In this document: positions 39,701 to 58,910 of the stretch, one piece after another | Layout of the letters: each line of letters starts with the position of its first letter | Position numbering within the stretch: position 1 is the first letter of the stretch | NCBI RefSeq assembly: GCF_002242685.1 | Contig: NZ_NBIM01000001.1 | Location: forward strand, 124,001-188,000 | Length of the DNA: 64,000 nt | Origin: Oceanimonas doudoroffii | GTDB lineage: Bacteria; Pseudomonadota; Gammaproteobacteria; Enterobacterales; Aeromonadaceae | Reading direction: 5' to 3' | Position numbers and translations under genes: made by a program | The notes under the pieces: generated by a model | Told to the model about the DNA's origin: nothing | Database searches by the model: none | The model's input: the letters and a program-made list of their open reading frames with translations, nothing else

Positions 39701-41830
39701 TCAGCCTGTTAACGCTTCCCATAAAAAACGTGCCTTGCGCAAGCGGCGGTGTAGCAGTCGCAGCAGGGCGCTTTTTGGCTCGCGTTGGCTTTCACGTTCC
39801 CTGGCCAGCTGGCGCGCCATGCGCAACGGCGTGCTGTAAAGCCCGGTTTTGTAATCCACATAGGTGGGATACCAGGCGTAGGTGGCATATATCAGGGCAG
39901 GCAAAGACAGGGCACGCCCCCGGCGGGAAACCGGATATATATCCGTGGTCAGCCCCCAGCCGGCATAAAACGGCTGGCCCCAGACCGTGACCGGCTTGCC
40001 ACGAACAAGCGCCTCCAGCCCGGTTAAAGACGTGAGCACATGCACGTTATCGCAGGCATTCAGGCAGTCGACAATACCGGCCTCGGTTTCCACCCGATCT
40101 ACACACGCTGCCAGCACGCTCTCCGGCACCTGGCCCTTGCGGCTGCCGCTCACCACATCCGGGTGCGGCTTGAACACGATAAAGGAATCGGGATGAGCAG
40201 CCCGCACCGCTTTCAGCAAGGCGGCGTTACCGGCCACGAACGGGCTGCCCAGTTGCACCGAGGCATCGTCATCCACCTGACCGGGCACCAGGATGACCGG
40301 GTGACCGCCGGCCTGCGCCCGCCAGTCAAGCTGGCGGCGCGTACCTACGTTGTATTTGGTCAGCGACTGCTCACGAAAATACGTTAACAGCCGCTTGCCC
40401 AGCTCAATCTCCAGGGCAGAAAAGTCATGATGCTTTAAATAATGTTCAATGGCACTCGGCGTGCGCGGATCGTAATACATGCCCACAGGATCAATGACCA
40501 GGGATCCCGGCCGGCGAAGATCCGAGCCCAGCCCCACCGAGCGTAAAAAGCCGTCTTCCATGCGCCACACCGGCAATGAGCAGGCGGCTGCCTGTTGCTC
40601 GAATTTGCGACCCCATACCAGCACGGCATTATTGTCATTCCCGCTCCCCATTTTGTCATTCCGCGAAGGAACGTCATCCTCGCGCAGGCGGGGACGGGAA
40701 TCCATGGCCTTTTCAGCCCCCACCGAACTGTCAGGCACAACGCCGTTGTCCGGAATACGATCAACCAAGGTTACTTTGTTTGCATACCGCCGTAGAAAAC
40801 GCGGGGAAAAACGTCGCCGCCATAGCGAAAACCCTACCGCATACAGCTCATTCACCGGCGGCACCGGTGCGCGTTGTGCCAGGATCAAATCCAGCAGTTC
40901 TTCAAGCTCGCAACGCTCGCCGGTTACCGGATCCAGGTAGCGGCAATAACGCAAATACGCTGCTGCCAGTAGCTGCGGTACCGTGCGCGGTTCACCCCGG
41001 CGCGGTACGGTAATGCGATCGTCGGTTACCCCCCAGCCCGCATAAAAAGGCGCGCCAAAGCACACCACCGGCTTGCCGGCCAGCAGCGCCTCAAAGCCCA
41101 GCTGAGAGGTCACGGTATACACCCTGTCCACTTTCGCCATCAGCGCAAAGGGATTCACACTGTCGGCCAACAGCAACACATCGGGTTCGGCAGCATGGGT
41201 TAAGTAGCCCTGTTTTTTCCCAAGCAGCACATCCGGGTGGGTGCGCACAATAATCTGGGCGCTAGGGTTCTCGGCCCTGGCGGCAGCCAGCATATTGGTA
41301 AATGACGCTTCACTGGCCAACCCCAGCCGTACCGACTGATCGCCTTTGGTCTGATCAATCACCAGCACCCTGGGGCGGGCGCTGTTCAGCCTGTCTGCCA
41401 CGGCCGTTGGCAGGGTATTACCGGCATAACAGTTGTATTTGGTAATGCCATGCTCAACCAGATCATGGCGCAGCGTCTCGGCACGTTGCTGCCAGCCATT
41501 ATTCCACCAGTCCAGGTTTTGCAGCATGTGCTCAAGGGCATTTGGGCAAGTGGCATCGTAATACACGCCCACCTCATCCACGATCAGAGACAATCGGTGG
41601 CCGCCATTGGCCGGATGGCCGATATAGCCCACAAAACCATCTTCCAGCTGCCAGAAGGGCAGGGCACGCCACTCAGCCAGGTTGCGCGCCCGCCCGGTGT
41701 TGGGTTTCATACCCCAGCCCACCACCGCCGCTGGGCTGTTGCCGGGCATCAGCCCAAGCGAGTGAGGCGCCAGCAAAGCATTAAGCACCCGGCGCTGGCG
41801 CCAGATGCCGTAAGAGGTGGTTAACAGCAT
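39701..41830 (-). CDS. kpsC: KpsC-type capsule beta-Kdo transferase
   Basis: The 709-residue protein has the two-domain arrangement of E. coli KpsC, which adds the Kdo linker to a phospholipid acceptor of ABC-exported capsules. The first half starts MLLTTSYGIWRQRRVL, with QLEDGFVGYIG, THPDVLLGKKQGY and VYTVTSQLGFEALLAGKPVVCFG. The second half has LPVWRMEDGFLRSVGLGSD, IVFKPHPDVVSGSRKG and HVLTSLTGLEALVRGKPVTVWG. The start is put at 41830, where alignment with KpsC begins, rather than at an ATG at 41914 inside pgi. About 30 residues rich in Asp, Asn and Arg are inserted between the halves; see the repeat at 40631. It is the last gene of the glycan cluster. Confidence 0.88.
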   Translation of the reverse strand: MLLTTSYGIWRQRRVLNALLAPHSLGLMPGNSPAAVVGWGMKPNTGRARNLAEWRALPFWQLEDGFVGYIGHPANGGHRLSLIVDEVGVYYDATCPNALEHMLQNLDWWNNGWQQRAETLRHDLVEHGITKYNCYAGNTLPTAVADRLNSARPRVLVIDQTKGDQSVRLGLASEASFTNMLAAARAENPSAQIIVRTHPDVLLGKKQGYLTHAAEPDVLLLADSVNPFALMAKVDRVYTVTSQLGFEALLAGKPVVCFGAPFYAGWGVTDDRITVPRRGEPRTVPQLLAAAYLRYCRYLDPVTGERCELEELLDLILAQRAPVPPVNELYAVGFSLWRRRFSPRFLRRYANKVTLVDRIPDNGVVPDSSVGAEKAMDSRPRLREDDVPSRNDKMGSGNDNNAVLVWGRKFEQQAAACSLPVWRMEDGFLRSVGLGSDLRRPGSLVIDPVGMYYDPRTPSAIEHYLKHHDFSALEIELGKRLLTYFREQSLTKYNVGTRRQLDWRAQAGGHPVILVPGQVDDDASVQLGSPFVAGNAALLKAVRAAHPDSFIVFKPHPDVVSGSRKGQVPESVLAACVDRVETEAGIVDCLNACDNVHVLTSLTGLEALVRGKPVTVWGQPFYAGWGLTTDIYPVSRRGRALSLPALIYATYAWYPTYVDYKTGLYSTPLRMARQLARERESQREPKSALLRLLHRRLRKARFLWEALTG
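40631..40708. repeat. Short palindromic repeat lying in frame inside kpsC
   Basis: The stretch has the inverted 7-mers ATTCCCG (40637-40643) and CGGGAAT (40695-40701), an internal TTCC/GGAA hairpin (40659-40671) and GTCATCC-like blocks. The coding-strand product is MDSRPRLREDD followed by SRNDKMGSGND. Such palindromic elements are normally intergenic in bacteria and give similar peptides when read through. Here the frame stays open and the insertion falls between the two KpsC glycosyltransferase domains, where the E. coli protein has a much shorter linker. Confidence 0.7.
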
Positions 41831-41861
41831 AAAGTGCTTAAGCTCATGAGTAGGCCCCTTT

Positions 41862-43499
41862 TTACTTCCGCCACTCAAAAATCTGCTGAACCAGCTGTTG
41901 TGTCGCCGGATCATGCGCAGCGGCGTCGGTTTTACCCATAAGCGTATCCACCAGCCCGCTGGCGAGTTTTTTGCCTAGCTCCACGCCCCATTGATCGAAG
42001 CTGTTCACGCCCCACAGTACACCCTGCACAAAGGTTTTGTGCTCATACATGGCGATCAGGCTGCCCAGGGTATGGGGTGTGAGTTCCTTGCACAAAATCA
42101 CGGTGCTGGGGCGGTTGCCCGGCATGACCTTGCTAGGCAGCAGCTCGGCAATGCTCTGCTCGCTTAAGCCCTCTGCTCTCAGCTCGGCTTCAACATCAGC
42201 CGCTGACTTGCCAAATGCTAGCGCCTCGGCCTGGGCCAGCATATTGGCCAGCAGCTTGTGGCGGTGAGCGGGAAAGTCGTAAGGCGAATTCACAAAGCCG
42301 ATAAACTCGGCCGGCACCACTGCGGTGCCCTGGTGCAGCAACTGAAAAAATGCATGCTGGCTGTTGGAGCCCACATCGCCCCACACAATGGGGCCGGTAG
42401 CTGAACTTACTTGCTCACCGCTCAGGGTGACCGACTTGCCGTTCGACTCCATGTTCAGCTGCTGCAAAAAGGCTGGAAAACGGTGCATCAGCTGGCTGTA
42501 GGGGAACACGCCTTCGCTGGCGTGGCCAAGCACGTTGTGGTTCCACACCGTAAGCAGCGCCAGCAATACCGGAATGTTTTGCTCAAAGGGCATGGTGCGC
42601 AGGTGCTCATCCATGGCGTGGGCGCCGGCCAGCAGTTCCTCAAAGCGCTCAAAGCCTATGGCCAGTGCAATGGGCAGGCCAATGGCCGACCACAGTGAAA
42701 AACGCCCGCCCACCCAGCTCCAGAACTCGAACATATTTTCGGCAGCAATACCAAACTCCACCACCTTGCGCTGGTTGGTGGATACCGCCACAAAATGCTG
42801 CTGCACCAGGCCAGGGTTGCCACAGGCATTCAGCAGCCACTGGCGGGCCGCCATGGCGTTGGACATGGTTTCATCGGTGCCAAAGCTTTTGGATGACGCC
42901 ACAAACAGGGTAGTGGCCGGATTAAGCCTGGCCAGGGTGGTGGCCAGGTGTGCGGGGTCAATATTCGACACAAAATGGGCGCGAATACCGGTGGTGCAAT
43001 AGGGCGCCAATGCCTCGCACACCATCGCCGGCCCTAGATCGGAGCCGCCAATGCCTATATTCACCACATCTTTAATCGGCTGACCGGTGTAACCCCGCCA
43101 GTCGCCGTTATGCACCCGCTGGCAAAAGCGGCGCATTTTGGCAAGCTCGGCATGTACGGCGGGAATAATGTTAACGCCATTATGTTCAAGCACGGCACCG
43201 GCTGGCATGCGCAATGCGGTGTGTAGCACCGCACGCTGCTCGCTGGGGTTAAAACAGTTATCGGCAAACAGGCCGGCAATGGCTTTAGGCAGGTTCAGTT
43301 GCCGGGCCAGCTCGCATAGCTGAGCCAGGGTTGTGGTGCACACCTGCTGGCGGGAAATATCCACCAGCAGGCTCTGCCCAAAATGAAAGGTCAGCTGTTG
43401 TGCCCGCTGGCTGTTTTGCTGAAAACGTTTGGCCAGGGGGGGGAGGTGCTGGGCGCTGTGCTGCAGCGCCGCAAACAGAGGGAGTGTAGATAACGGCAC
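41862..43499 (-). CDS. pgi: Glucose-6-phosphate isomerase
   Basis: The 545-residue enzyme interconverts glucose and fructose 6-phosphates. The first signature is VNIGIGGSDLGPAMVCEAL, with the substrate loop SKSFGTDETMSNA. The catalytic glutamate is in EFGIAAENMFEFWSWVGGRFSLWSAIG, and the active-site MESNGKSVTLSG and the C-terminal GVNSFDQWGVELGKKLA are all present. A GTG at 43499 with CGGAG upstream is taken as the start; longer ATG frames overlap galU. Within the glycan cluster it links central metabolism to the sugar-nucleotide supply made by galU. Confidence 0.93.
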   Translation of the reverse strand: MPLSTLPLFAALQHSAQHLPPLAKRFQQNSQRAQQLTFHFGQSLLVDISRQQVCTTTLAQLCELARQLNLPKAIAGLFADNCFNPSEQRAVLHTALRMPAGAVLEHNGVNIIPAVHAELAKMRRFCQRVHNGDWRGYTGQPIKDVVNIGIGGSDLGPAMVCEALAPYCTTGIRAHFVSNIDPAHLATTLARLNPATTLFVASSKSFGTDETMSNAMAARQWLLNACGNPGLVQQHFVAVSTNQRKVVEFGIAAENMFEFWSWVGGRFSLWSAIGLPIALAIGFERFEELLAGAHAMDEHLRTMPFEQNIPVLLALLTVWNHNVLGHASEGVFPYSQLMHRFPAFLQQLNMESNGKSVTLSGEQVSSATGPIVWGDVGSNSQHAFFQLLHQGTAVVPAEFIGFVNSPYDFPAHRHKLLANMLAQAEALAFGKSAADVEAELRAEGLSEQSIAELLPSKVMPGNRPSTVILCKELTPHTLGSLIAMYEHKTFVQGVLWGVNSFDQWGVELGKKLASGLVDTLMGKTDAAAHDPATQQLVQQIFEWRK

Positions 43500-44460: not shown

Positions 44461-45402
44461 TTACGAATAAGGGCGTTGTAATAAGCGCGCGGCATTGTTA
44501 CACATTTTTTTTCGCTCTTCTTTATTTTCACTTAACCGCAAAATGGCATTCACCCAGGCTTGCTGATCCATGGGCAGTAATAGTCCATTGTATGGGTGCC
44601 GGATGACAGAACGATAAATCGGATGATCCGCATAAATACCCACGGCGCCAGCCTGAGTAATATCAAAAAACTTGGTGGGCGCCCGGGCGGCGTTAAAACG
44701 GTTATTCAGCAGTGGCACCAGACCAATGGTGCGGCCCGGGCGAGCCAGCAAGGCCTGGTAGGCTGGCCAGCTCATGGGGTGCAGCACATGTACCCGGGGC
44801 AGGGCGGCATACTGCCTGCGCACTCTATGGTTTCCGATTAGCTCCACGCTCAGGTTGGCATCCTGTGCCAGCACCTGTTCAAACACCGGATACAACCACG
44901 CAAACTCCGCCCCGTGAGACGCCGAGCCATGATAAAACAGCGTTTTTTGTGGCGTTGAGTGCGCATAGGGTGACTGTGGCTGCAGCACCAGTGGCGACCA
45001 CTCGGCATACTTCTTCGCCAGAAATGGTGTGGAGACCCACAGCTCGGCCCCCATGCGCTGCAGCCAGCGTTTATGCCGCCGGGCCAGCAGCCAGAGCTTG
45101 TAACGATAGCGCAGCGGCAAACCGGCATGGGCACGCGGATCGAACAGATCGTCGTCCATAAAAAACGCCAGCTGGCCCAGCTGTGCGCGGTTGTTCTCCA
45201 CCCATTGTCGCCAGGCTGGGGTGAGGTAACGCACAAATACCAGTCCTGCCAGTGGCGTAGTCAGTGGTGGGCATGGTGCGCTTAAATCGACCTCTGTTAT
45301 GGATGAGCTCGTAGCCGCCAACCAAGGGCGGACAAAAAAATCGGTGGACGGGTTGGCGCCCTGCTGCACCACCAGGGTAGTGGCCGGCGTTACCACGGCC
45401 AC
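44461..45402 (-). CDS. Glycosyltransferase, GT-B-like
   Basis: A 313-residue protein with a degenerate N-terminal half (LVFVRYLTPAWRQWV, DDDLFDPRAHAGLP) and a C-terminal part typical of nucleotide-sugar GT-B enzymes: KTLFYHGSASHGAEFAW, ELIGNHRVRRQYAALPRVHVLHPMSW, APTKFFDITQAGAVGIYADHPIYRSVI and NGLLLPMD. The start ATG at 45402 overlaps the preceding GT2 gene by 13 bp. It probably adds one sugar to the polysaccharide repeat. The donor and acceptor are unknown. It may be shorter than usual GT4 enzymes. Confidence 0.7.
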   Translation of the reverse strand: MAVVTPATTLVVQQGANPSTDFFVRPWLAATSSSITEVDLSAPCPPLTTPLAGLVFVRYLTPAWRQWVENNRAQLGQLAFFMDDDLFDPRAHAGLPLRYRYKLWLLARRHKRWLQRMGAELWVSTPFLAKKYAEWSPLVLQPQSPYAHSTPQKTLFYHGSASHGAEFAWLYPVFEQVLAQDANLSVELIGNHRVRRQYAALPRVHVLHPMSWPAYQALLARPGRTIGLVPLLNNRFNAARAPTKFFDITQAGAVGIYADHPIYRSVIRHPYNGLLLPMDQQAWVNAILRLSENKEERKKMCNNAARLLQRPYS

Positions 45403-47483
45403 TCCACCCGGGGGATTTTACCCAGCCGGAAGTCGGGCTGGGAATAGTTGAGGTTGGGGTTATAAAACGGATCCCGCTCAATAATGTGGCCCCAGCGGCT
45501 GCGCATATATTGTGTTTCACCTTTTGCCCGGGCCTGTTTTTCCGCCGAGTCATCTTTGCCGCGAGATATCGACTCGTGGTGGTAAAGCTCGGCATAAGGC
45601 GTGTAAATCACGCGAAGCCCGGCTTCTCTGACTCGCAGACAATAATCTACATCGTTAAAGGCTACAGGCAGGTGGGTTTCGTTAAGTCCTTTCAGCTGCT
45701 GATACAGCGCTTTGTGAGTCACCAGGCAGGCAGCGGTAACCGCCGACAAGTCCTGAGCCAGCACAGCCCGGTGCATATAACCGGGATCGTTTTCTTCCAG
45801 TATGCCGTGCAAATGGGTGGCGCAACCGCCGGGGCCCAACACGTCGCCGGCGTGCTGAATTCTGCCATCACTGAAGTACAGGCGGGCGCCTACTACTCCC
45901 ACGCCTGGTTGCAGCAGGCGCGATACCATTTCTTCCAGCCAGTCGGGGCTTATCACTTCGGTATCGTTGTTCAGCAAACAAATCACATCGCCACTGGCGT
46001 GCGCCACCGCGAAATTGTTAATGGCTGAAAAGTTAAACGGCTTGTCATAGCGCAGCACTTTTACATTGTGGTGGCGGGATATCTGCTCAAAATACGCCAG
46101 GGTTGCAGGCGCACTGCTTTGGTTGTCTACCACCAGCAGCTCGTAGTTGGGCCAGGTGGTTTTTTGCAGCAGGCTGTCTACACAGGTTTGCAGATAGTGC
46201 AGCGCATCGCGGGTGGGCACCACAATGGAGACTTTGGGCAAGGCCTGCGGCAACGCATAACGCACTCTTAAATAATTCCCCTGCTCACACACGGTGGCGG
46301 CTACCTGATGGCGCTGAAAATACTGTTCCAGGGCAGAACGCTCCGTCGTTGAGCTCTCGGCCGCACCATAGTGAAACAGTACGGCAGGAATATGACAGAC
46401 CGCGCTGTCCTTCAGGTGTACAGTCGATTCCAGCATCAGCTCATAGGGCGAGTTAAAGCCACAGGTGGCCAGGGCCCGGGTCAGCACATGGCCGCGCAGG
46501 GCAAAGGCCGATCCCACAAAGCCGGCGCTGCGGGCCAGTTCTGGCGACCAGTCGGGTTTGAACTGCGGGTTTTCCCGTGCGTTATGCAGCCAGTAGTCGT
46601 GATCCGAATAGATAAAGGCAATATTCGGCTTGCGTGCCTCTGCGGCCAGCCAGGCCAGCGCCCAGGGTGCCATGCGGGTGCCAGCCTGCAGCAGCAACAC
46701 CCAGTGGTTATCGGGCCAGTGTGTTTCCGCCAGTGCCTCAACCGCGATGGGTTCGGCATGTTTGAACAGCGATACCCAGTCATGCTTTTGCTGCGCAGTC
46801 AGCAACACCTTGCACGCTGCCGGTGCGATTTCCAGTTGCTGCTGCAGCGAATTCAGGGTTTGTTGCACGATGGCAGGCGAGGCGGCCTGGCGAGCGTCTA
46901 TGACTACCTCAAACATGACACCGGTAAACGCCTGTTTTTTTACCGCGCGTTTCAGGCGTCGGGCAACGGCCGGAGTAAAATGCTCGCTCTGTTCAATCCA
47001 CCGAGCGTAGGAAGGTGAGGCTGTGTAATAACGGCTCTTGCCAATCAGTGCATACGCCGAATAAGGAGCGCGCAGCATGGCGAGCGGATGCAAACCCAGT
47101 ACACGCCGTTGTGCCGGGGTGGCGGTGGTATAGGTGTTATACAGCCGGCGCCACATCAAATAACGAGCGGTGGCCAAGTTTGTACGAGTTACGGTGACGG
47201 TATCAAGCCCGCCGGCAGGCCCCATGCTTTTTACTTCCAGCCACATCTGTTTTGCAGCAGTCAGCCTAATCAGTTCATACAACTTGCCCTTGAGGGTTAT
47301 GGGCATATCAAGAACAAGAAGCTTGCCATGCACCGGCTCTATAACGAGCCTGGCTTCCAGTTCGGGGCCATCATACTGCAACTGACCACTAACCAGTATC
47401 CAGCCCGAGCCGTCGAGATTGCTTGTGTTCAGCTCAATGCGCTGCATTGAGCTGGTTATTGCTTGTTGAGCTACCGGCATCAT
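45390..47483 (-). CDS. Glycosyltransferase, GT2, two-domain
   Basis: The 697-residue protein carries a C-terminal GT2 catalytic domain from about residue 415. It begins PKVSIVVPTRDALHYLQTCV, then KPFNFSAINNFAV, the metal site LLNNDTEVISPDWLEEM, GFYNDVDYCLRVREAG-like acceptor region (here AFNDVDYCLRVREAGL) and a final YHHESISRG. A middle region around residues 190-340 looks like a second, degenerate GT-A (VLLLQAGTRMAPWAL, IYSDHDYW). The N-terminal 90 residues form a beta-rich region without assigned function. The stop codon of the upstream methyltransferase gene lies just before its ATG. It is likely a chain-elongating transferase. Confidence 0.8.
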   Translation of the reverse strand: MMPVAQQAITSSMQRIELNTSNLDGSGWILVSGQLQYDGPELEARLVIEPVHGKLLVLDMPITLKGKLYELIRLTAAKQMWLEVKSMGPAGGLDTVTVTRTNLATARYLMWRRLYNTYTTATPAQRRVLGLHPLAMLRAPYSAYALIGKSRYYTASPSYARWIEQSEHFTPAVARRLKRAVKKQAFTGVMFEVVIDARQAASPAIVQQTLNSLQQQLEIAPAACKVLLTAQQKHDWVSLFKHAEPIAVEALAETHWPDNHWVLLLQAGTRMAPWALAWLAAEARKPNIAFIYSDHDYWLHNARENPQFKPDWSPELARSAGFVGSAFALRGHVLTRALATCGFNSPYELMLESTVHLKDSAVCHIPAVLFHYGAAESSTTERSALEQYFQRHQVAATVCEQGNYLRVRYALPQALPKVSIVVPTRDALHYLQTCVDSLLQKTTWPNYELLVVDNQSSAPATLAYFEQISRHHNVKVLRYDKPFNFSAINNFAVAHASGDVICLLNNDTEVISPDWLEEMVSRLLQPGVGVVGARLYFSDGRIQHAGDVLGPGGCATHLHGILEENDPGYMHRAVLAQDLSAVTAACLVTHKALYQQLKGLNETHLPVAFNDVDYCLRVREAGLRVIYTPYAELYHHESISRGKDDSAEKQARAKGETQYMRSRWGHIIERDPFYNPNLNYSQPDFRLGKIPRVEWPW

Positions 47484-47484
47484 G

Positions 47485-48960
47485 TCAGCTTCGTAACCGC
47501 TTTAAACCCTGAACAAGTTGAGAGCTCAGACCAGCAGCCTTGGGGCGTGAGGTGGAGAGATGCGCTAGTGGAATGCGGGCATCATTGATAACCAGGCCGA
47601 ACTCAATGCCGTGCTCCAGCCAGTTTGCAGGCAGTTCAAAGCTAAAACCACAGGGATGTTCCTGCCAAAACATAGGGGCGGCTTCGGTGTTGCCGAACAC
47701 GGCGTTCAGTACGTCTTTTCTGGCTCTATCCGGAGTAAATAAGCGAGCTGCCTCTTCCGGCCCGGTGACATAAAGAAGGTAGCTGGCTTGCAGATATTCT
47801 TTGGTTATTGCCCAGCCGGCAACACGAATGGTGCCTGCACTGGTATGTAAAGCACCATTGCCAGGGGAGTCCAGATGCCATTGGATCAATGGTTTGAGTT
47901 CTTTTTTAAGTTGTTTGGCAACCTGAACATACTCGCCGGTAAAAGCCGTTTGCTCCTTTTTTAGATGTTTTTCATACTGCCTGGCTTTGCTGGTGGCTGT
48001 TTGTGCTTTGGTAAGCGGTGTGCTGGCATTCCACGACACTTCAACCGGAAAGTAGCCCAGTGCTTGCAGTGCATCCTTTATTTGCTGGTGAAACTCGGCA
48101 GGTACGTAAGAGTCAAGTGCAAAGTCACGGAACCCGGCCTGGTTGCTCCACAGTTGTACCAGCTCGATTGCCATACCCTGCTCCAATACCTTCCGGGTTG
48201 TTTTGTCTATGGTAGCGGTAGTAAAGCCCTCGCTGACCAAAGCACGCAGCTCATCGGATACATTGAGCTTGCCCTGGCTGATCTGCAGGTAGGTGCGATC
48301 GCCAGAAATAACCGGAATACCGGGTTTTCCGCCGAACATGCGCCGGCAAATAGTGGACTTGCCTGATCCTGGTTCCTGGATGAGTAGCCATGCATAGGGC
48401 TTGAGCTTGCGCACATGCACCACATAACGTTGCAGCGGATCACCGGCTTGCATTACGCTGTGGCCAATTACCTTCCAGGCATAGTCTTTGAGAATGTGGC
48501 CCAGCTTGATACGGGTAGGAAAAAAACGCTCGTCAATGGCGCGCTGTACTTTAACCCATTCATTCTGCGTTCCCGGTGCCATGCTGATCTCCAGTACCAG
48601 CAGGCCATCATCGGTCAGCAGGCTCATCAGCCGGTGGATGAGCGCTTCCTGATCTTCGGCATAATGCAGGGCAGAAAGCAGGGTGATAACATCAAAACGG
48701 CCATCAGGCAGTGTATCCCAGGACTGGTTAACAAACTCCGCATCAGGAAAACGCACTCTGGCCTTGCCAATGGCATCTGCCGATTTATCCATGCCCACTA
48801 CCTGACTGGCACCTTCAAACAGGGCATAGCCACAGAAAAAACCTTCGTTACAGCCTACATCCAGAAAACGCTTGCCAGACAGAGGGGGCAGGCGTAACGC
48901 GGCCAGTTTTTGTGATGAGGCCGAACCGCCCTTAACGCCGGGAAATGATTGATACTGCAT
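47485..48960 (-). CDS. Fusion: SAM methyltransferase plus P-loop NTPase plus beta domain
   Basis: The 491-residue protein has three parts. Residues 25-175 are a class I methyltransferase: motif I FLDVGCNEGFFCGYALFEGA, VGMDKSADAIGKARVRF, LLSALHYAED and LVLEISMA. Residues 185-310 carry a P-loop, WLLIQEPGSGKSTICRRMFG (GKST at 200-203, without the usual leading Gly), with VISGDRTYLQ following; this resembles a small-molecule kinase or ATPase. Residues 345-480 are beta-rich (GTIRVAGWAITKEY, CGFSFELPANWL). I know no characterised protein with this exact fusion. WbdD of O-antigen synthesis also joins a methyltransferase to a kinase, but its kinase is a protein-kinase fold. Capping the glycan chain is a fair guess. 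Confidence 0.7.
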   Translation of the reverse strand: MQYQSFPGVKGGSASSQKLAALRLPPLSGKRFLDVGCNEGFFCGYALFEGASQVVGMDKSADAIGKARVRFPDAEFVNQSWDTLPDGRFDVITLLSALHYAEDQEALIHRLMSLLTDDGLLVLEISMAPGTQNEWVKVQRAIDERFFPTRIKLGHILKDYAWKVIGHSVMQAGDPLQRYVVHVRKLKPYAWLLIQEPGSGKSTICRRMFGGKPGIPVISGDRTYLQISQGKLNVSDELRALVSEGFTTATIDKTTRKVLEQGMAIELVQLWSNQAGFRDFALDSYVPAEFHQQIKDALQALGYFPVEVSWNASTPLTKAQTATSKARQYEKHLKKEQTAFTGEYVQVAKQLKKELKPLIQWHLDSPGNGALHTSAGTIRVAGWAITKEYLQASYLLYVTGPEEAARLFTPDRARKDVLNAVFGNTEAAPMFWQEHPCGFSFELPANWLEHGIEFGLVINDARIPLAHLSTSRPKAAGLSSQLVQGLKRLRS

Positions 48961-49005
48961 TAGCTCTTCTCATATTAAAATTATTGTTACGCTACTCAAT
49001 CATAA

Positions 49006-50676
49006 TCAGCTGGTGCGTCTGTTTTCGGCTTGACCAAACCGGAGATAATGTAACAGAGGATTAAATCCTTCCGCTTTTACATCAGGGTTTAGCAATAAGT
49101 AGGTGGCGCTATCAAAGTTGGGGCCGGGGTTGCGGCCTTCAAAGCCACCAAACCTGAGATAGTGGAGAGCTGGGTTCTTGCGAAATTTCTTGTCATTTGC
49201 TACATCCGGGTACTGCGCAAGATACCACTTTGCATCGAAAAGTGATGAGTTATACAAGTCGGCAAGTTTTCTTTTGAGTGCTTTTTGTTCTGCTCGTTTT
49301 TGAAATTGTTGTTTCAGCACAGAAACTTTCTCATTGCTGGCACTTTGAGAAACAGCAGGTGTATCTGAGACTGCCGGCTGATGATCTTTCTGTGCAGATG
49401 AAATAAAGTAATTTTCAAACTCTTCCTGAACAGAAAACAACTGCTCCAGCAACAGCTGGTTTTCTTGCTGTAGCTCATTCTGTTCGTTTTTGGCCTGGTT
49501 AAGTACTTGCTGCTGGCTATTCAGTTGCTCCTGCTGTTGGGTGATTTTACTGTAAAGCTCCTGTTGTTCTTTATTGTAAGCCTGCTGCTGTTGTTGATGC
49601 TGAGCACGCTGCTTTTCATACTCCAGTGTGCGTGACTCCAGCGCTTCTTGCACGGTAAACAACTGCTCCAGTAGCTGCTGATTTTCCTGCTGCAGTTCAT
49701 CCTGTTTTTGCCTGGTCTGATTATGTACTTGTTGCAGGCCGTTCAGTTGCTCCTGTTGCTGTTGATGCTGAGCACGCTGCTTTTCATGCTCCAGTGTGCG
49801 TGACTCCAGTGCTTCCTGCACGGCAAATAACTGCTCCAGCAACAGCTGATTTTCCTGCTGCAGCTCATCCTGTTTTTGCCTGGTCTGGTTATGTGCTTGT
49901 TGCAGGCTGTTCAGTTGCTCCTGCAACCGGGTGTTTTGGCTTTGCCACTCTTGTTTTTCCTGGCTATAAGCCTGCCTTTCCTGTTCAGCAAGTTGCTGCT
50001 GATGATGAGCTTTCTCTTTAAGTTCATTCAAAAGCACCTGATTTATGGCTTGTTTTTCCAGTAATCCGGGCAGTTGCTGTTGCACAGAAATGGCATTTTG
50101 ATAATGAGTGACCAGTTGATTTATATCCACCGGCAGCAAGGAGTGCTCGGGGGAGTGTTCTGCCAGCGGCTGAGACAGGGCTGCCAGCTGCTGGCCCAGG
50201 GTTTGCAGTGCTGGTGCCTGGCTTTGAATTGCATAAGCCAGCAGCTGGTAGAAAGGATCCGGCTTTGCTTCAGCACGGAGTGACTCGTTACAGTTAACCG
50301 TCAATTCCGGCCAGCGGTTGGCACACGCATCTGCAAATGCTCGAGGGGATGAAAAAACCTCGACAAAATTAGCCAGCAAAACCCGGGTTCGGTGTTGTTT
50401 GTAAAAGCGAATTAACTGGCTGGCGTTTTGTTGCCAGGTGACCAGTGCCTGCTCAATGACAAAGCCCTGTTCAGTGGCTTGCTGCAGGACCCATTCCAGG
50501 GGGGCGTAAAGTACAATGGCGTTAGCTGCATTATTTTCAAGCAGCTCGCCTGCATGGTTTAGTGCCTGTTCGTTTTCAAGAGCCAGTATTTCAGTTGGGG
50601 AAATGTTTGCCTGCAGTAACAGGGTTGTAGCCTCATCCCTGTCACAAAAAGCCGAAGTGCCTAACAATATATTCAT
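49006..50676 (-). CDS. Long coiled-coil protein with tandem repeats and a C-terminal PDV module
   Basis: The 556-residue protein has an alpha-beta N-terminal part (MNILLGTSAFCDRDEATTLLL, about 1-140, P-loop-nucleotidyltransferase-like but without clear motifs). A coiled coil from about 205 to 424, rich in Gln and Glu, contains three copies of a 56-residue unit (starting near 253, 309 and 383, the last after an 18-residue insert). The C-terminal region, about 478-556, reads SSLFDAKWYLAQYPDV and FDSATYLLLNPDV, each followed by NPALHYLRFGGFEGRNPGP-type sequence. This last module recurs in the next glycosyltransferase. It has no membrane segment. I propose a scaffold or ruler function; no homologous function is known to me. 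Confidence 0.6.
   Translation of the reverse strand: MNILLGTSAFCDRDEATTLLLQANISPTEILALENEQALNHAGELLENNAANAIVLYAPLEWVLQQATEQGFVIEQALVTWQQNASQLIRFYKQHRTRVLLANFVEVFSSPRAFADACANRWPELTVNCNESLRAEAKPDPFYQLLAYAIQSQAPALQTLGQQLAALSQPLAEHSPEHSLLPVDINQLVTHYQNAISVQQQLPGLLEKQAINQVLLNELKEKAHHQQQLAEQERQAYSQEKQEWQSQNTRLQEQLNSLQQAHNQTRQKQDELQQENQLLLEQLFAVQEALESRTLEHEKQRAQHQQQQEQLNGLQQVHNQTRQKQDELQQENQQLLEQLFTVQEALESRTLEYEKQRAQHQQQQQAYNKEQQELYSKITQQQEQLNSQQQVLNQAKNEQNELQQENQLLLEQLFSVQEEFENYFISSAQKDHQPAVSDTPAVSQSASNEKVSVLKQQFQKRAEQKALKRKLADLYNSSLFDAKWYLAQYPDVANDKKFRKNPALHYLRFGGFEGRNPGPNFDSATYLLLNPDVKAEGFNPLLHYLRFGQAENRRTS
49413..49920 (-). repeat. Tandem 168-bp DNA repeats encoding the coiled coil
   Basis: Unit starts lie near 49920, 49752 and 49530 on the coding strand (residues 253, 309 and 383). 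The first two copies are adjacent, exactly 56 codons apart and very similar at DNA level. The third is more diverged and is separated by an extra 54 bp. Each unit encodes a block with NQTRQKQDELQQENQ and EQLF.VQEALESRT. Units in whole codons can be gained or lost without frame damage. Confidence 0.85.
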
Positions 50677-50694: not shown

Positions 50695-53220
50695 TTAATT
50701 CTGGCAAACTTTATTTTTATTAAATACATGATGCGTGGTGGCTGTTTCTGATGAGCTGACCTGCTGATACACATCCAGGTACTGCTCTGCCATTTGGCGT
50801 GTGTTTGAGAGCCTGCCATCGTATTGCTGCCAGCAGCGTACGGCGTCTGCTTTTTGCTGCCATTCGCCGGGTTGGCTTGCCAGCGTCAGCAGGTGGCTTA
50901 GTTCGGCAACATTGGCATGACGCAATAGCCAGCCTGCGCCGCTGCTGGTAATGCGCTCACCCACGGCGCCGGTATTCATACCCACAACGGGGATGCCGCA
51001 CGCCCAGAGTTCGGTAAGCGTATGGCACCAGGTTTCGGGCCAAATGGAGAGCACAGCCCCCAGATGAGGCCTGATTTCGGCTATTTTCCGCGAAAATTCC
51101 TCTCGCCGGTATTTGCCGTGACAAATAACATGAGCCGGCATCCGCAAGCCAGGGGCCAGATCTCCCAAAAGATGTATTTGCAATGATTCCGGAGGCATTT
51201 TTTCTGCCAGAGCCTGTATTAACCTTCCGCCTTTTGCTTTCGACAGGCTGCCTGGCACCACCAGCCGCAGCGGCTCATCGTCACCGGTGCAAACGGCCAG
51301 TTGCTGCAGGGCCGCAAAGTCACGACCATGGGGTATGACCCTGAACAGCTTGTTTGCCAGGGCAGGGTAACGCTGCACCAGCAGGTTACGGGCAAACCCG
51401 GTGGTGGTAATAAAGGCATTGCATAATGAGAGCGCCAGTTCAAACGCCGATTGCCAGGCATGGATCTGGCCGTGTTTGAGATGGTTAAAGCTGTTCTCTG
51501 GCCACAGCTCGTGTTGACAATGGCCTTGCCCGGCCGTGCAGCGTGCGGCACAGAACTGCTGCCTGTCATCCAGTAACTTGACGGTTGGGCACAGAGTATA
51601 GAAGTCGTGAAAAGAGAAGATACTGGGTATGCCCAGGTGAGCAGTCACCTCGAGTAACCCCAGGCTGTGCCAGGCGATATGGCGTATATGCACAAGCTCT
51701 ATCGACCATTGCATCAGCCAGTTTGCGACTACTGCATCATATTCTTCGCTTTTGTGCGGTAACGCCCTGACTGGCTCGGCCAGTATATGGTTGTTGATTT
51801 CGGTATAAACACCATCGGCAAAATGTTCCAGCGTAATACGCTGTCCATTGCAGTGCAGCACCAGCGCTTCCACCTCGGGTGCCAGCGCCTGCATCAGATC
51901 CTGATTGGTCTGGGGGGTGCCACCGGTGCGTGTTGAAATAACATAAAGCACCCGTGGCCGGATTTGGGCATGAGAGCCGGCAAACTGCCTTAGTACGGTT
52001 CCCACCCGGCTGCGTGCTTGTTGCAGTGCGGGGGCGGCAAACGCCTGACGTACCTGCTCGGTGTAGTGTGGGTAACGGGCATCCACAACGGCACGGCCTG
52101 CCTGCAGCAGGGCCTCTTTTGCGGTACCAAAGCTGGCCGAGCGTTGATGAGCAATATAGGTACTGTCATCAATCAGATGCAGCCAGGCCTGAGCACCGGC
52201 ACGCATGCAAAAGTCGTTTTCTTCTCCATAACCCCGCGGAAAGGCCTGTTCATCAAAGCAGCCAATATCATCAAGGCAGCTGCGGCGAATATACATGCAA
52301 AAGCCGTTGCCGGTAGGCACTGCTGGCAAGTAATGACCGGATGCCTGTGCAATGGCACGGGCACACTCGGCAAGGCTGGTGCCCTGTGGCAGTGGATTAA
52401 CGCCGGGGGCAGGGACTGAAAATGCCCCCGCGTTATTGGAAAAAGGGGTGACAGTTGCCACTCTGGGATGGGAGCAGGCGGCCCAGCGCAGCCGTTGCAC
52501 CCAGCCGGCAGAAACGCAGGTGTCGGAATTTAACAGAATGACATCGGCTTGCCCGGCCAGTGCGATACCTTCGTTCACCGTATGGGTATAGCCCTTGTTA
52601 TGAGCGTGAGTGAACACCTCAAAACCCGGCACGGTTTTATATTTCTTGAGCAATGGAACAATGGCCGCTTCTGTGCTGGCATCGTTAATCACCAACACCC
52701 GGCAGCCGGAAGGGGTATAAGCCCGCACCGACTCCAGGCACGCTTCAACCGCTGTGGCGGCATTGAATACCGGAATAATAATCACTGGCCAGCCGGCTGT
52801 GGAAAGGCGTGCCAGCCTGGCATGGTCTGCCTCGCTGTGGGTTGAGGAAGACGCCAGGCTCCACCACCATGGAGCGCTGCCCCACTGCAGTTTGGGGGTG
52901 GCCCCCTGTGCCTTGCCAACCTGCAGATAGTGCAACAGTGGCGCCATGTTGGCCGATGCTGCACCGGGTTGCTGCTCCAGGTAGTAGCCGGTATCAAACG
53001 CCGGCCCCGGCTCCCGGCCTTCTCGCCAGCCGTGCAGCAGGTAGTGGCGCACGGGGCTCATGCCTGCCGCTGCAACATCGGGATTTTGCAGCAAATACCA
53101 TTCGGCGTTGAACAGGCCACTGTGGCAAAGCAGCCGTTCTTCTGCACCCTGTTTGGCGTTGGCTGCCCTGGCCTTGCCCGGCAGCAAGCGGGCTGCCTGC
53201 TGAGCGAGGTATTTAATCAC
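50695..53220 (-). CDS. Glycosyltransferase fusion: PDV module, GT2, GT-B
   Basis: About 841 residues. Residues 35-105 are the PDV module: [32 protein letters not shown] and [15 protein letters not shown]. The GT2 domain (about 145-400) has [21 protein letters not shown], the DxD-like [29 protein letters not shown] and [16 protein letters not shown]. The GT-B part (about 430-825) has [48 protein letters not shown] and [23 protein letters not shown] at 53220, overlapping ugd by 8 bp, is chosen; an ATG at 53259 would overlap ugd by 47 bp and has no better site. The two catalytic units probably add two sugars in turn. Confidence 0.75.
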
Positions 53221-54388
53221 TGCCAAACAGATCCCGGGTATATACCTTGCTGGCCACATCCTGCAACTGCTCGGTCATGCGGTTGGCCAGGATCACATCC
53301 GCCGTTTGCTTGAACTCGTCAAGATGGGTGATCACACGAGAGTGGAAAAACTCGGGCTGGTGCAGCTCGGGCTCATATACCACCACCTCAATGCCTTTGC
53401 CTTTAAGGCGCTTCATAATGCCCTGAATGGCAGAGGCGCGAAAGTTGTCTGACCCGGATTTCATCACCAGGCGGTAGACACCCACAACCCGAGGGTTACG
53501 CTTGATAACCGATTCGGCAATAAAATCCTTGCGGGTGCGGTTGGCATCCACAATGGCCTGGATCATGTTGTTGGGCACATCCTGATAATTGGCCAGCAAC
53601 TGCTTGGTGTCTTTGGGAAGGCAATAACCACCGTAGCCAAAACTGGGGTTGTTGTAGTGGCTGCCAATGCGAGGATCCAGCCCGACCCCTTCAATAATCT
53701 GGCGGCTGTTAAGGCCGTGGCTTTCGGCATAGCTGTCTAGCTCGTTGAAGTAGGCCACCCGCATGGCCAGGTAGGTATTGGAAAACAGCTTGATGGCTTC
53801 GGCCTCGGTGCTGTCGGTAAACAGCACCGGCACATTCTGCCTGATGGCGCCCTGCTGCAGCAGGGTGGCAAACTGCTCGGCGCGTTCACTGCGTTCACCC
53901 ACAATAATGCGGCTGGGGTAGAGGTTATCGTAAAGGGCCTTGCCTTCACGCAAAAACTCGGGGGAAAAGATAATATTATCCGTGCCAAATTTTTCTTTCA
54001 CCGACACGGTGTAACCCACAGGCACCGTGGATTTGATAACCATCACGGCGTTGGGGTTTACCGACATAACCTGATCGATCACCGATTCCACACTTTTAGT
54101 GTTGAAGTAATTGGTTTCGGGATCATAGTCGGTAGGGGTGGCAATAATTACGAAATCTGCCTCACGATAAGCCTGCTCTGCATCCAGGGTTGCCGTGAAG
54201 TCCAGTGCTTTGTTGGCAAGGAAGTCACTGATTTCCTTGTCTTCTATCGGTGAGATTTTGTCGTTCAGTAATTGTACCTTCTCCGGTACTATATCGGCGG
54301 CAATAACTTTATTATGTTGTGCCAGCAGCATGGCGTTGGATAAGCCAACATAGCCGGTGCCGGCAATGGTTATGTTTAAGTGAGACAC
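53213..54388 (-). CDS. ugd: UDP-glucose 6-dehydrogenase
   Basis: The 391-residue enzyme oxidises UDP-glucose to UDP-glucuronate. It begins [22 protein letters not shown] (GxGxxG), continues with [30 protein letters not shown] and [20 protein letters not shown], and reaches the catalytic cysteine in [38 protein letters not shown] follows near the C-terminus. It is the short, single-enzyme form common in capsule loci. With galU, also in this cluster, UDP-GlcA becomes available as a glycan building block. Confidence 0.95.
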
Positions 54389-54413
54389 TAATAACCCCGA
54401 AATTTAATGCTGT

Positions 54414-55544
54414 TTATTCAAAGAAGGTTGTGACCGCGTTGCTGACTTTAATTACTTCATCATGGGTCATGTTGAAGTAAAGTGGTAAGCGAATAAGCCT
54501 TTCACTTTCACTCGTGGTGTTTTCATCTTTCCCTATGAATTTGCTATATTTTTTGCCGGCTTCGGCATTGTGTAGAGGTATGTAATGAAATACTGCCATT
54601 ACACCTTGGGACTTTAAGAAGTTAAGTAACATTGTTCTTTGTTTTAAACGTTTTACTTTAATATAAAACATGTGTGCATTGTGCTTGCAGTTCATTGGTA
54701 TGCTAGGGGCTTCAATGCAGCCTTTTTTGACTAGAGGCTCTAATTGGTCTTTGTAATGACTCCAAAGAGAAAGGCGTTTTTCATTTATTTTTTCTGCATG
54801 TTCTAGTTGTGCCCATAAATATGCTGACTGTAACTCAGAAGGTAAGAAGCTGCTGCCAATATCAACCCAGCTGTACTTGTCTACCATTCCACGAAAGAAC
54901 AGGCTTCTGTTGGTTCCTTTCTCTCTTATTATTTCAGCTCGTTGTGCTAATTTTTCATCGTTGATAATCAGCAAACCACCTTCACCACCGCTAGTATAAT
55001 TTTTTGTCTCATGAAAGCTAAAGGCTCCCAAGTGACCAAAAGTGCCTAGTGGCCTATTCTTGTAAGTGGACATCATTCCTTGAGCCGCATCTTCTACTAC
55101 AAATAAGCCATATTTATTTGCCAGATCCATGATTTTTTCCATTTCGCACCCGACTCCAGCATAATGAACGGGTACTAACACCTTAGTTCTATCAGTTATT
55201 GCAGCTTCAATCTTTGTTTCGTCAATGTTCATTGTATCTTTGCGGATATCTACAAAAATAATTTTTGCGCCACGTAATACAAAAGCATTAGCCGTACTTA
55301 CAAAGGTGTAGCTGGGCATGATTACTTCATCCCCAGGTTGAATGTCGAATAATATGGCTGCCATCTCAAGCGCAGCTGTGCAAGATGGTGTTAGTAATGC
55401 TTTTTTACATCCAAGTTTTTCTTCAAACCAACTCTGGCACCTTTTACCAAAGTGGCCATCACCAGAAAGTTTGGGGCTATTGATTGCTTCAATTATATAA
55501 CCCTGCTCAGCTCCAGTGACTGGAGGCTTGTTAAAGTTTATCAT
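54414..55544 (-). CDS. wecE: dTDP-4-amino-4,6-dideoxygalactose transaminase
   Basis: The 376-residue PLP-dependent sugar aminotransferase (DegT/DnrJ/EryC1 family) matches WecE/RffA: INFNKPPVTGAEQGYI, CKKALLTPSCTAALEMAAIL, GDEVIMPSYTFVSTANAFVLRGAKIIFVDI, EDAAQGMMSTYKNRPLGTFGHLGAFSFHETKNYTSGGEGG (the PLP lysine is in the ETKN stretch) and FHYIPLHNA. It would convert dTDP-4-keto-6-deoxyglucose to dTDP-Fuc4N, with the keto sugar coming from rfbA and an rfbB expected beyond the window. The gene is AT-rich like its right-hand neighbours. It is followed directly by a formyltransferase, which suggests the amine is formylated. Confidence 0.92.
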   Translation of the reverse strand: MINFNKPPVTGAEQGYIIEAINSPKLSGDGHFGKRCQSWFEEKLGCKKALLTPSCTAALEMAAILFDIQPGDEVIMPSYTFVSTANAFVLRGAKIIFVDIRKDTMNIDETKIEAAITDRTKVLVPVHYAGVGCEMEKIMDLANKYGLFVVEDAAQGMMSTYKNRPLGTFGHLGAFSFHETKNYTSGGEGGLLIINDEKLAQRAEIIREKGTNRSLFFRGMVDKYSWVDIGSSFLPSELQSAYLWAQLEHAEKINEKRLSLWSHYKDQLEPLVKKGCIEAPSIPMNCKHNAHMFYIKVKRLKQRTMLLNFLKSQGVMAVFHYIPLHNAEAGKKYSKFIGKDENTTSESERLIRLPLYFNMTHDEVIKVSNAVTTFFE

Positions 55545-55545
55545 T

Positions 55546-56421
55546 TTATTTAAACCGGCTCCTGAAATTTACTTTTGATAGGTTTGATTCTGAAAAGTCA
55601 ATGGATGTTAACTCCAGCAAGCCCTCACCGCAGATGACAATAGGATTTCTATTTTTCATGAAGATTACTTTACCTATATGACGTTCTCTATCTTCCACTT
55701 GAACATCTTCAGTGACTTCTACATCATCGATCATCAAAACTTGTGTATTTAGCTTTGTTCTTGCTCGCCCATATGGATAACCCACGGCATCTACAAATCT
55801 TTTAATTTTTTCTGCTTTCCACTTCCAGTTTATGAAGTAGTCTTCTTCATCAAGCCATATGCTGTAAGTAGAATCTGATTCCTGCTGTTGTTTAGGTTTT
55901 AATTTCCCAGTCAGTAAACTCGTGAAGACGAAGATAACTAACTCTGAATATATATATGATATTTTATTTATTGCATCACTTATTTTTATAGGGTAGGTTA
56001 TTTTAATCGATTTTTGACCAATTATATCCCCTCTATCATAATCCTCATTAGCAAGTAATGCGGTTACTCCGATCTCTTTTTCTCCATTTACAAGCATATT
56101 AACCAAAGGTGCAAAGCCTCGATATCTTGGTAGTAGCGAATCGTGAAGTACAATAAGGTTATCAGACTCGTTGATTAACCAGCGCCAGCCTATTGCAAAT
56201 TTGTAGGAAACATCAGGAAGGGATGAGGTGTTTTTCCTTTTTGATACTTGAATGTTGGATGATGAGCATAAAGATAAAATTTCATTATAATGATCATTTG
56301 TAACTGAAGTATCTTCGTCAGTTACGACATATGCAATATGTTTGCAGCCAAAATGATTAATAAATGAGTTCAAGACACTTAGGCCTTTAAAACCCATGAT
56401 GTAAAAACCTATTTTCATCAT
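55546..56421 (-). CDS. Sugar N-formyltransferase (methionyl-tRNA formyltransferase fold)
   Basis: The 291-residue protein shows the N10-formyltetrahydrofolate transferase core: GWRWLINESDNLIVLHDSLLPRYRGFAPLVNML, the HxSLLPxxxG formyl-transfer motif, and DYDRGDIIGQKSIKI with the catalytic aspartate. The N-terminal 70 residues differ from Fmt. A C-terminal domain of about 90 residues includes FVDAVGYPYGRARTKL and resembles the sugar-binding part of formyltransferases acting on dTDP-4-amino sugars. It begins with ATGATG at 56421 and sits just upstream of wecE, so dTDP-Fuc4NFo is the likely product. 173 bp of AT-rich sequence without a gene precede it. Confidence 0.85.
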   Translation of the reverse strand: MMKIGFYIMGFKGLSVLNSFINHFGCKHIAYVVTDEDTSVTNDHYNEILSLCSSSNIQVSKRKNTSSLPDVSYKFAIGWRWLINESDNLIVLHDSLLPRYRGFAPLVNMLVNGEKEIGVTALLANEDYDRGDIIGQKSIKITYPIKISDAINKISYIYSELVIFVFTSLLTGKLKPKQQQESDSTYSIWLDEEDYFINWKWKAEKIKRFVDAVGYPYGRARTKLNTQVLMIDDVEVTEDVQVEDRERHIGKVIFMKNRNPIVICGEGLLELTSIDFSESNLSKVNFRSRFK

Positions 56422-56594
56422 TTAATCCAAGCTTTATATGATAAAGAGTTGAGCTAACTTTACTAAATAGAACTAGTTTTAAAGCGTAGTTTGTGCCTAA
56501 GCATAATTTGAGGGGCGCGGTATCATCATTACGATGAGATTAAGTAACCGATAGTATCTTGGTTGATTATAGAATGTTGTGTAGTTTTTGTTGG

Positions 56595-58247: not shown

Positions 58248-58255
58248 TTTGAAAT

Positions 58256-58900
58256 TTACAACCTGTCTTTATTATATTCGCTAGGCATTCTTCTATCCCA
58301 GTTGACTCCGCGTTTAATAACTGATGCAGGGAAACCTGCAATGGCGATGTTTTGTTCTAAAAATGCTTTTGTTACAACAGCGTAGCTACCCACAATGCAA
58401 TTATCTGGAATCGATGAGCCTTTGAGGAACTTTACATCCTCACCGACCCATACATGATTCCCGATTAATATATCTCTAGGTATATTTATTGCTTTGTCTG
58501 TAGCAATGTCTATAACGGAATGACCATCTGAAGTCCGCATTTTTATTCCCCATGAAAACAGACAGTCATCACCAATTGTGCACTTTTCATCTCCGTCATT
58601 CATTTGTATTTCCATGCCGCCACAACTAAAGCTGTTTCCGATGACGAAACTTTGATTATTTCCTCGGATGGAAGTGAATTTTAAGTTGTTAATATTTTTC
58701 TGTGTCTCACCAATGTAAAAGGTTTTGTTGTTACCCTTTAAATTTAAGAATAAGTTACTGATCGATTTTGCTTTAGAGATTCTTATTTTATTATTGTTGC
58801 CATATATATGGATCCTTGATAAAGAAAAAGGGGTTCCTTCTTCAATATGGATAAGGTTATTCTCGCCTTCATTAATTATCTGTATGCCTTTGTACTCCAT
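58256..58900 (-). CDS. Left-handed beta-helix (hexapeptide) acyltransferase
   Basis: The 214-residue protein has a run of hexapeptide-type turns, with an IHIYGNNNKIRISKAK-like start and a transferase-typical C-terminal part: KCTIGDDCLFSWGIKMRTSDGHSVID, IPRDILIGNHVWVGEDVKFLKGSSIPDNCIVGSYAVVTK and IAGFPASVIKRGVNWDR. This is the form of maltose or galactoside O-acetyltransferases found in polysaccharide clusters. It would place an acetyl or other acyl group on a sugar. It lies between two putative transferase genes, 8 and 10 bp away. Confidence 0.75.
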   Translation of the reverse strand: MEYKGIQIINEGENNLIHIEEGTPFSLSRIHIYGNNNKIRISKAKSISNLFLNLKGNNKTFYIGETQKNINNLKFTSIRGNNQSFVIGNSFSCGGMEIQMNDGDEKCTIGDDCLFSWGIKMRTSDGHSVIDIATDKAINIPRDILIGNHVWVGEDVKFLKGSSIPDNCIVGSYAVVTKAFLEQNIAIAGFPASVIKRGVNWDRRMPSEYNKDRL

Positions 58901-58910
58901 TTATATATCC

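Follow-up and report, generated by a model that had tools for sequence, protein, structure and literature searches.

MTPL and COIL are two adjoining genes in a 64,000-nucleotide stretch of the Oceanimonas doudoroffii genome (contig NZ_NBIM01000001.1, positions 124,001 to 188,000; hereafter the window, in whose numbering coordinates are given). Both lie on the minus strand: MTPL (47485..48960) encodes a 491-residue methyltransferase/P-loop/GW-domain protein, a candidate glycan capping or tailoring enzyme, and COIL (49006..50676) a 556-residue coiled-coil protein, just where an initial annotation of the DNA had placed such genes side by side. That annotation saw in them a glycan chain terminator and its ruler, divided over two genes. 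We find that the enzyme and the coil protein are not a fixed pair. Our favoured explanation, to which we give somewhat less than even confidence, is that MTPL is a two-step capping enzyme, optional in its locus, which would act beside COIL as a polymerase-associated scaffold.

MTPL joins a methyltransferase, a P-loop domain and a GW domain

MTPL begins with a class I S-adenosylmethionine (SAM) methyltransferase domain (residues 1-186; 48403..48960, minus strand), which Pfam locates at residues 20-137. A P-loop domain follows (residues 187-345; 47926..48402, minus strand), with a Walker A sequence PGSGKS and the motifs SGD and LDSYVP. The initial annotation was correct about this fusion, but it had missed a third, C-terminal beta-rich domain, the GW domain (GW..RxDV..CGF; residues 366-471; 47548..47865, minus strand). 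The structure model of MTPL (117 sequences) has a mean predicted local distance difference test (pLDDT) score of 93.5 and contains a methyltransferase, an alpha/beta P-loop domain, a C-terminal beta-rich domain and a short end helix. Across the 117 aligned sequences, G200 and K201 of Walker A and D221 of the SGD motif are invariant. The fold lists for the whole model are filled by methyltransferases, and hence classify neither the P-loop nor the GW domain.

The P-loop domain of the window's MTPL itself has no Pfam match. When 36 members of the MTPL family were scanned against Pfam (cut-off E <= 0.01), matches were obtained to AAA_33 (18/36), AAA_17 (6/36), AAA_18 (6/36) and Zeta_toxin (4/36), as well as to the general ATPase families AAA_16 (6/36), AAA_22 (6/36) and AAA (3/36); protein-kinase families were absent from the matches of these 36 relatives. 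Against PDB, the P-loop profile reaches adenylate kinase 9 at E 8e-8 (summed over weak stretches), zeta toxin at 0.002 and adenylate kinase 8 at 0.01, although the matches lie mostly in the Walker A region and unrelated chains reach similar E-values. By family resemblance, the middle domain of MTPL looks like a P-loop kinase. The relatives score to P-loop kinase families and not to a transport family, which supports the P-loop type of enzyme supposed in the initial annotation. The sulfotransferase fold of this locus belongs to the head of COIL.

The GW domain is shared with Wzt-like export ATPases

Relatives of MTPL were found at 67 loci in named genomes. At 17 of 18 such loci in Pseudoxanthomonas, Luteimonas and Lysobacter, which we take to be Xanthomonadaceae, a Wzt-like ATPase of 376-411 aa is encoded directly upstream of MTPL, and the gene preceding the ATPase is an ABC2_membrane gene in 9 of the 10 loci tested. 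The C-terminal extension of these ATPases is homologous to the C-terminal domain of MTPL (hhalign 97.8%, E 8e-13), and a hidden Markov model of the GW domain matches all of them (17/17; best E 1e-9, weakest 1.6e-3). Compared with PDB sequences, the GW profile has two matches at E <= 1, the amidase 8c4d (E 1.3e-4) and one at chance level; Wzt is not among them.

A natural contrast is available in the Pseudoxanthomonas-centred family of G756, the source genome of locus L023 (395 genomes; ATPase cut-off E <= 1e-60, MTPL cut-off E <= 1e-15). The ATPase is present in 79/395 genomes, in a close extended form in 23, a diverged extended form in 21 and an unextended form in 35. MTPL is present in 22 genomes: 21/23 with the close extended ATPase, 1/21 with the diverged extended ATPase and 0/35 with the unextended ATPase. 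For 21/23 versus 0/35, Fisher p is 8e-14, ignoring shared ancestry; two of the 22 MTPL matches are partial (G772, G776) and one is weak (G1059). Identity to the query ATPase is 49-60% over the shared part for the unextended proteins and 49-66% for the close extended ones, the query itself excluded. Measured between matched stretches, MTPL lies 9-82 nt downstream of the ATPase in 18/22 genomes and 318 nt in one more; in the remainder it is about 12 kb away (G760), about 3 kb away (G1059) or on another contig (G772).

The two ATPase forms were checked at 32 fetched loci. All 15 extended ATPases have 127-148 residues past the ATPase domain, each of them scoring as GW, and all 17 unextended ones have 9-33 residues there and no GW score. 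In the two exceptions with a close extended ATPase (G862, G925), the place after the ATPase is taken by a coil/DPV protein, and MTPL was not found; each of these ATPases contains one in-frame stop, and hence may be broken. ABC-exported glycans are the setting of the MTPL family, and in the Pseudoxanthomonas-centred family it is linked to an ATPase with a homologous extra domain; this agrees with the capping-type enzyme of the initial annotation.

MTPL is one of several occupants of a variable slot

To place the two genes in their own family, 75 genomes were surveyed, the own genome included. MTPL is found in 5/75 and COIL in 10/75, and all five MTPL genomes are among the ten; the co-occurrence that the initial annotation called for is thus seen elsewhere. 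Three of the ten COIL matches (G039, G046, G047) are weak and partial, at 26-30% identity, and upon inspection of their loci prove to be coil proteins that have a DPV module. Coils were scored in these locus comparisons by a crude composition rule. Fisher p for the association of MTPL with COIL is 1.5e-5 over the 75 genomes (1.1e-4 with the own genome removed), 0.007 within the genus (23 genomes; 0.017 with the own genome removed) and 0.09 among the genus's 16 kpsC genomes, shared ancestry being ignored in all of these values. The two genes are directly adjacent in one of the five MTPL genomes, our own; a gene for a glycosyltransferase with family 2 and family 4 domains (GT2/GT4) lies between them in G041 and G044, and COIL is about 9-10 kb off in G039 and G047.

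A 697-residue GT2 glycosyltransferase is encoded next to MTPL in the window. It has nine matches at E < 1e-60, all nine in COIL genomes, and weaker matches in 7 more genomes; KpsC is found in 29/75 genomes, including all ten with COIL. The slot before this GT2 gene in the ten COIL genomes holds MTPL in five, a protein with GW and AlgX-like SGNH domains in two, sulfotransferase-like genes in one (a 304-aa protein that narrowly misses the Pfam cut-off and one of 453 aa assigned by visual inspection) and nothing in two. The slot is thus variable and MTPL optional in it, whereas COIL accompanies the core of glycosyltransferases. An exclusive two-part terminator and ruler finds no support in this comparison: COIL occurs without MTPL in 5/10 genomes, with the slot empty in two of them, and in G862 and G925 a coil/DPV protein likewise stands next to an extended ATPase with MTPL not found.

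The GW plus AlgX-like proteins in MTPL's slot (L073:13289-14656 and L074:10034-11455) have the GW domain at the N-terminus, before the SGNH domain (PF16822). The empty slots, with the flanking genes kept, belong to two close relatives (L072:6835-6860 and L081:6374-6716).

At the loci of Oceanisphaera, Zobellella, Oceanimonas, Halomonas and Accumulibacter, MTPL usually lies between the GT2/GT4 gene and the 697-aa GT2 gene, often near kpsC. At 6/18 of the Pseudoxanthomonas, Luteimonas and Lysobacter loci (L023, L025, L026, L027, L044, L057), its direct neighbour is a coil/DPV protein. A class-wide search found MTPL in 1/369 genomes, our own; across the order, the first 400 residues of the neighbouring GT2 had matches in 22/345 genomes, the strong ones being confined to the own genus. 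The MTPL relatives of Desulfovibrio and Mailhella (L049, L050, L053) have no GW match and carry at the C-terminus a stretch that, as in COIL, scores as a DPV module.

COIL carries a sulfotransferase-fold head and a repeat-built coil

COIL consists of a head with a sulfotransferase fold (residues 1-174; 50155..50676, minus strand), a coiled coil (residues 196-432; 49381..50091, minus strand) with three copies of the motif NQxLLEQLFxVQEExE, and a C-terminal DPV module (WYLxxYPDV..HYLxxG; residues 464-556; 49009..49287, minus strand). Between residues 196 and 432, approximately, there is a single proline, and the heptad periodicity is reached by 1/1000 composition shuffles. The spacings of the coil motif leave remainders of 0, 1, 3 and 4 modulo 7, with one of 5, which fits a continuous coil; as the copies are related in sequence, we put no weight on their spacing. 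Inside the coil lies a DNA tandem repeat (49585..49924, minus strand; 168 bp x 2.0, 91% matches), each unit of which encodes 56 residues, or 8 heptads. The initial annotation had the coil made of such repeats; they do lie within it, but at 340 bp they account for roughly half its length, and the protein has a folded head and a DPV module besides. An extended coil is located here in an ABC-dependent glycan locus.

The sulfotransferase-like heads encoded at L023, L025, L026, L041 and L044 retain GMHRSGTS and RxPxEVAxSL, presumably the motifs that bind 3'-phosphoadenosine 5'-phosphosulfate (PAPS). No recognisable PAPS-binding motif was found in the head of COIL, which starts GTSAFCDRD and in which YAPLEWVLQQA pairs with the second motif only in an alignment of 1.7% probability. 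With a profile probability of 1.7% between COIL heads and five sequence-level sulfotransferase heads, the fold alone relates them. COIL was considered as an active sulfotransferase and dropped, the motifs not being found. A search against viral models returned no match at E <= 0.001.

MTPL and COIL belong to a KpsMT-type capsule locus

Both genes form part of a tight minus-strand run of GT2/GT4, COIL, MTPL, GT2, a glycosyltransferase-like gene, galU, pgi and kpsC. The gap between MTPL and COIL is 45 nt, and that between MTPL and the next glycosyltransferase gene 1 nt. Upstream stands the GT2 + GT4 glycosyltransferase (50695..53259, minus strand), whose 854 residues include a DPV module. The conserved downstream neighbours are the 697-aa GT2 glycosyltransferase that tracks COIL (45390..47483, minus strand) and a 313-aa glycosyltransferase-like protein (44461..45402, minus strand) with Pfam GT1 matches below the cut-off. 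The downstream end of the locus is a KpsC-type protein (39701..41914, minus strand; PF05159 Capsule_synth in two stretches). The initial annotation was right that the locus ends in kpsC on the same strand, although the two glycosyltransferase genes, galU and pgi intervene.

Beyond the window, upstream and on the same strand, there follow rml genes, a gene for an FkbM-like coil protein, and readings of kpsE, kpsT (222 aa), kpsM, kpsD and kpsS. Pfam supports KpsC and KpsS (PF05159), KpsM (ABC2_membrane), KpsT (ABC_tran) and KpsD (Poly_export), and gives no match for the gene read as kpsE. The window's locus is a KpsC/KpsMT-type capsule locus. Its KpsT has ABC_tran alone, and the GW domain has no match in it.

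Three further features of the locus were recorded. At 54414-56421 there are genes for a sugar transaminase of WecE type and for a formyltransferase, which may point to a formamido-dideoxyhexose as a component of the glycan; inside the locus at 61148-62998, a protein of 616 aa matches BNR_4 and TPR; and GC content drops from about 57% to 33-40% over part of it (54001-60000), as in transferred cassettes.

A tentative capping mechanism and its relation to known systems

From the domains, homology, gene order and co-occurrence described above, we infer the following course of events for MTPL as an optional capping enzyme. While the GW domain holds the glycan, the P-loop domain would phosphorylate the growing polysaccharide on a sugar at its non-reducing end or close to it, and the methyltransferase domain would then methylate what results; a methyl phosphate is the simplest outcome. 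Where Pseudoxanthomonas, Luteimonas and Lysobacter have Wzm/Wzt-like systems, the extra domain of the same descent on the export ATPase may read this cap. In the KpsMT-type capsule of the window, the 222-aa KpsT is without a GW-type domain, and capping would accordingly limit or decorate chains and would not be needed for export, in keeping with the optional presence of MTPL. The signal for export in KpsMT capsules is the glycolipid end (PMC12220298), which could leave a cap optional, in agreement with the distribution of MTPL. COIL may be a polymerase scaffold whose sulfotransferase head has degenerated and whose coil is built of repeats; a role as spacer or ruler would then concern the whole polymerase complex and not MTPL alone. 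It is a further, rather unlikely, proposition that these genes make up a writer-reader system with a third type of kinase, in which the methyltransferase and P-loop kinase write a cap and the GW domain of the ATPase reads it. KpsMT loci would then have taken the writer without the reader, and COIL would be an interchangeable scaffold, at the service of any capping enzyme that occupies the slot.

WbdD of Escherichia coli O9a, as described in PMC3482155, combines a methyltransferase, a kinase of the eukaryotic protein-kinase fold and a fused coil. MTPL resembles it in the order of methyltransferase and kinase, in an ABC-exported glycan and in having a coiled coil at hand; likewise, Wzt there has an extra carbohydrate-binding module (CBM), as the ATPases beside MTPL relatives have an extra domain. 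The differences are the P-loop domain, the GW domain and a coil placed on a separate protein that is able to occur without the enzyme. MTPL thus shares with WbdD the N-terminal SAM methyltransferase domain and lacks both the eukaryotic protein-kinase fold and the fused C-terminal coil, and for want of these two defining features we do not class it as WbdD type, although its way of working may be similar. Homology of MTPL to WbdD was considered and dropped: WbdD structures exist in PDB (PMC3482155), and no chain of that name is among the 40 PDB matches at E 0.1.

The terminator ORF6-N of Klebsiella pneumoniae O7, a methyltransferase, kinase, Ig-like CBM and coil in one chain, has been shown to add methyl phosphate (PMC11231755). 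MTPL shares its order of methyltransferase, kinase and sandwich-type domain, and the rhamnose of the O7 glycan has a parallel in the rml genes here; in contrast, a coil and two GT2 modules are fused in the O7 protein. The O7 kinase resembles AmiN; the MTPL sequence points to a P-loop domain. K. pneumoniae O4, according to the same source, also has polymerisation and termination on separate proteins, but there a Kdo transferase with a coil of its own acts as terminator (PMC11231755). The carbohydrate domains of Wzt in capped O-antigen exporters are described as reading caps (PMC9445017). The Wzt-like ATPases here are alike in bearing an extra C-terminal domain, and differ in that this extension is related to the C-terminal domain of MTPL, a comparison made between sequence families only. 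Finally, the window's locus is of the same kind as known KpsMT/KpsC/KpsS capsule systems. A 2025 review of ABC-dependent capsules, in whose text the string 'methyl' is absent, presumes that synthesis and export jointly determine chain length (PMC12220298). In searches of open-licence PMC papers, no title or abstract opening came up that describes a chain terminator combining a P-loop kinase with a methyltransferase.

Weighing of the alternatives

Several observations weigh against MTPL as a capping enzyme. P-loop kinases usually have a lid arginine, and no conserved one is seen in the 117 aligned sequences, R206 alone being listed. The GW domain is present also in some GT2 glycosyltransferases, so that its sharing is not specific to capping, and none of the 17 ATPases matches the Pfam Wzt C-terminal family at E 0.01. 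In addition, 20/21 genomes with a diverged extended ATPase are without MTPL, and in the first gene downstream of ten such ATPases no methyltransferase or kinase was found (glycosyltransferase-type families in 6, no family in 4). Lastly, an empty slot in 2/10 COIL-bearing genomes and other genes in 3/10 imply that MTPL is dispensable there.

It is possible, if on the doubtful side, that MTPL plays no part in ending chains and tailors the repeat unit by adding methyl and/or phosphate to internal sugars or side chains. AlgX-like SGNH proteins and sulfotransferases, the classes found in the sister slots of two loci and one locus, respectively, usually decorate internal residues; the two empty slots, and a KpsT without a reader domain, agree with tailoring as well. 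However, MTPL relatives are tightly linked to export ATPases bearing the same extra domain, and the two proteins described with methyltransferase and kinase on one chain in PMC3482155 and PMC11231755, WbdD and O7 ORF6, are terminators.

A second coil protein at the locus offers another candidate terminator. This 481-aa protein, an FkbM-like head followed by a long coil, is encoded next to kpsE outside the window (L003:2405-3850, minus strand). That it is the true terminator and ruler, with MTPL and COIL as accessories, strikes us as somewhat unlikely. Its layout of head plus coil is that of a terminator, and more WbdD-like; the head is present in 12 family genomes, which include all ten with COIL, and at L076, L077 and L080 the gene stands in tandem with COIL after kpsE. 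Nevertheless, no kinase domain is recognised in it, and the protein of the own genome has no FkbM match, a relative attaining E 0.0028, below the cut-off.

We consider it unlikely that the P-loop domain merely binds nucleotide in a regulatory or scaffold role, MTPL being a methyltransferase only. The missing Pfam match of the window's protein, the general ATPase families among its relatives, the missing lid arginine and the PDB matches centred on Walker A and mixed with unrelated chains all speak for such a domain, but there is no variation at the lysine of Walker A or the aspartate of SGD in the 117 aligned sequences. Least probable is an obligate split WbdD with COIL as ruler for MTPL specifically, for, even though the genes adjoin in the own genome, COIL accompanies MTPL in 5/5 family genomes, a coil/DPV protein directly neighbours MTPL at six of 18 Pseudoxanthomonas, Luteimonas and Lysobacter loci and 7 pairs occur across the MTPL and COIL homologue lists on equal-sized contigs, direct adjacency in only 1/5 family genomes makes the strict model less likely, as do COIL without MTPL in half of its genomes, its tracking of the 697-aa GT2 and the p of 0.09 among kpsC genomes.

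Significance

Two kinase types of methyl-phosphate chain terminators are described in PMC3482155 and PMC11231755. If MTPL is indeed a capping enzyme with a P-loop kinase, this would be a third, by which capping could be recognised at further loci as yet uncharacterised. How chain length is set in ABC-exported capsules is said to warrant further investigation (PMC12220298); natural loci with MTPL, with another gene in its slot or with an empty slot make this question testable among close relatives.

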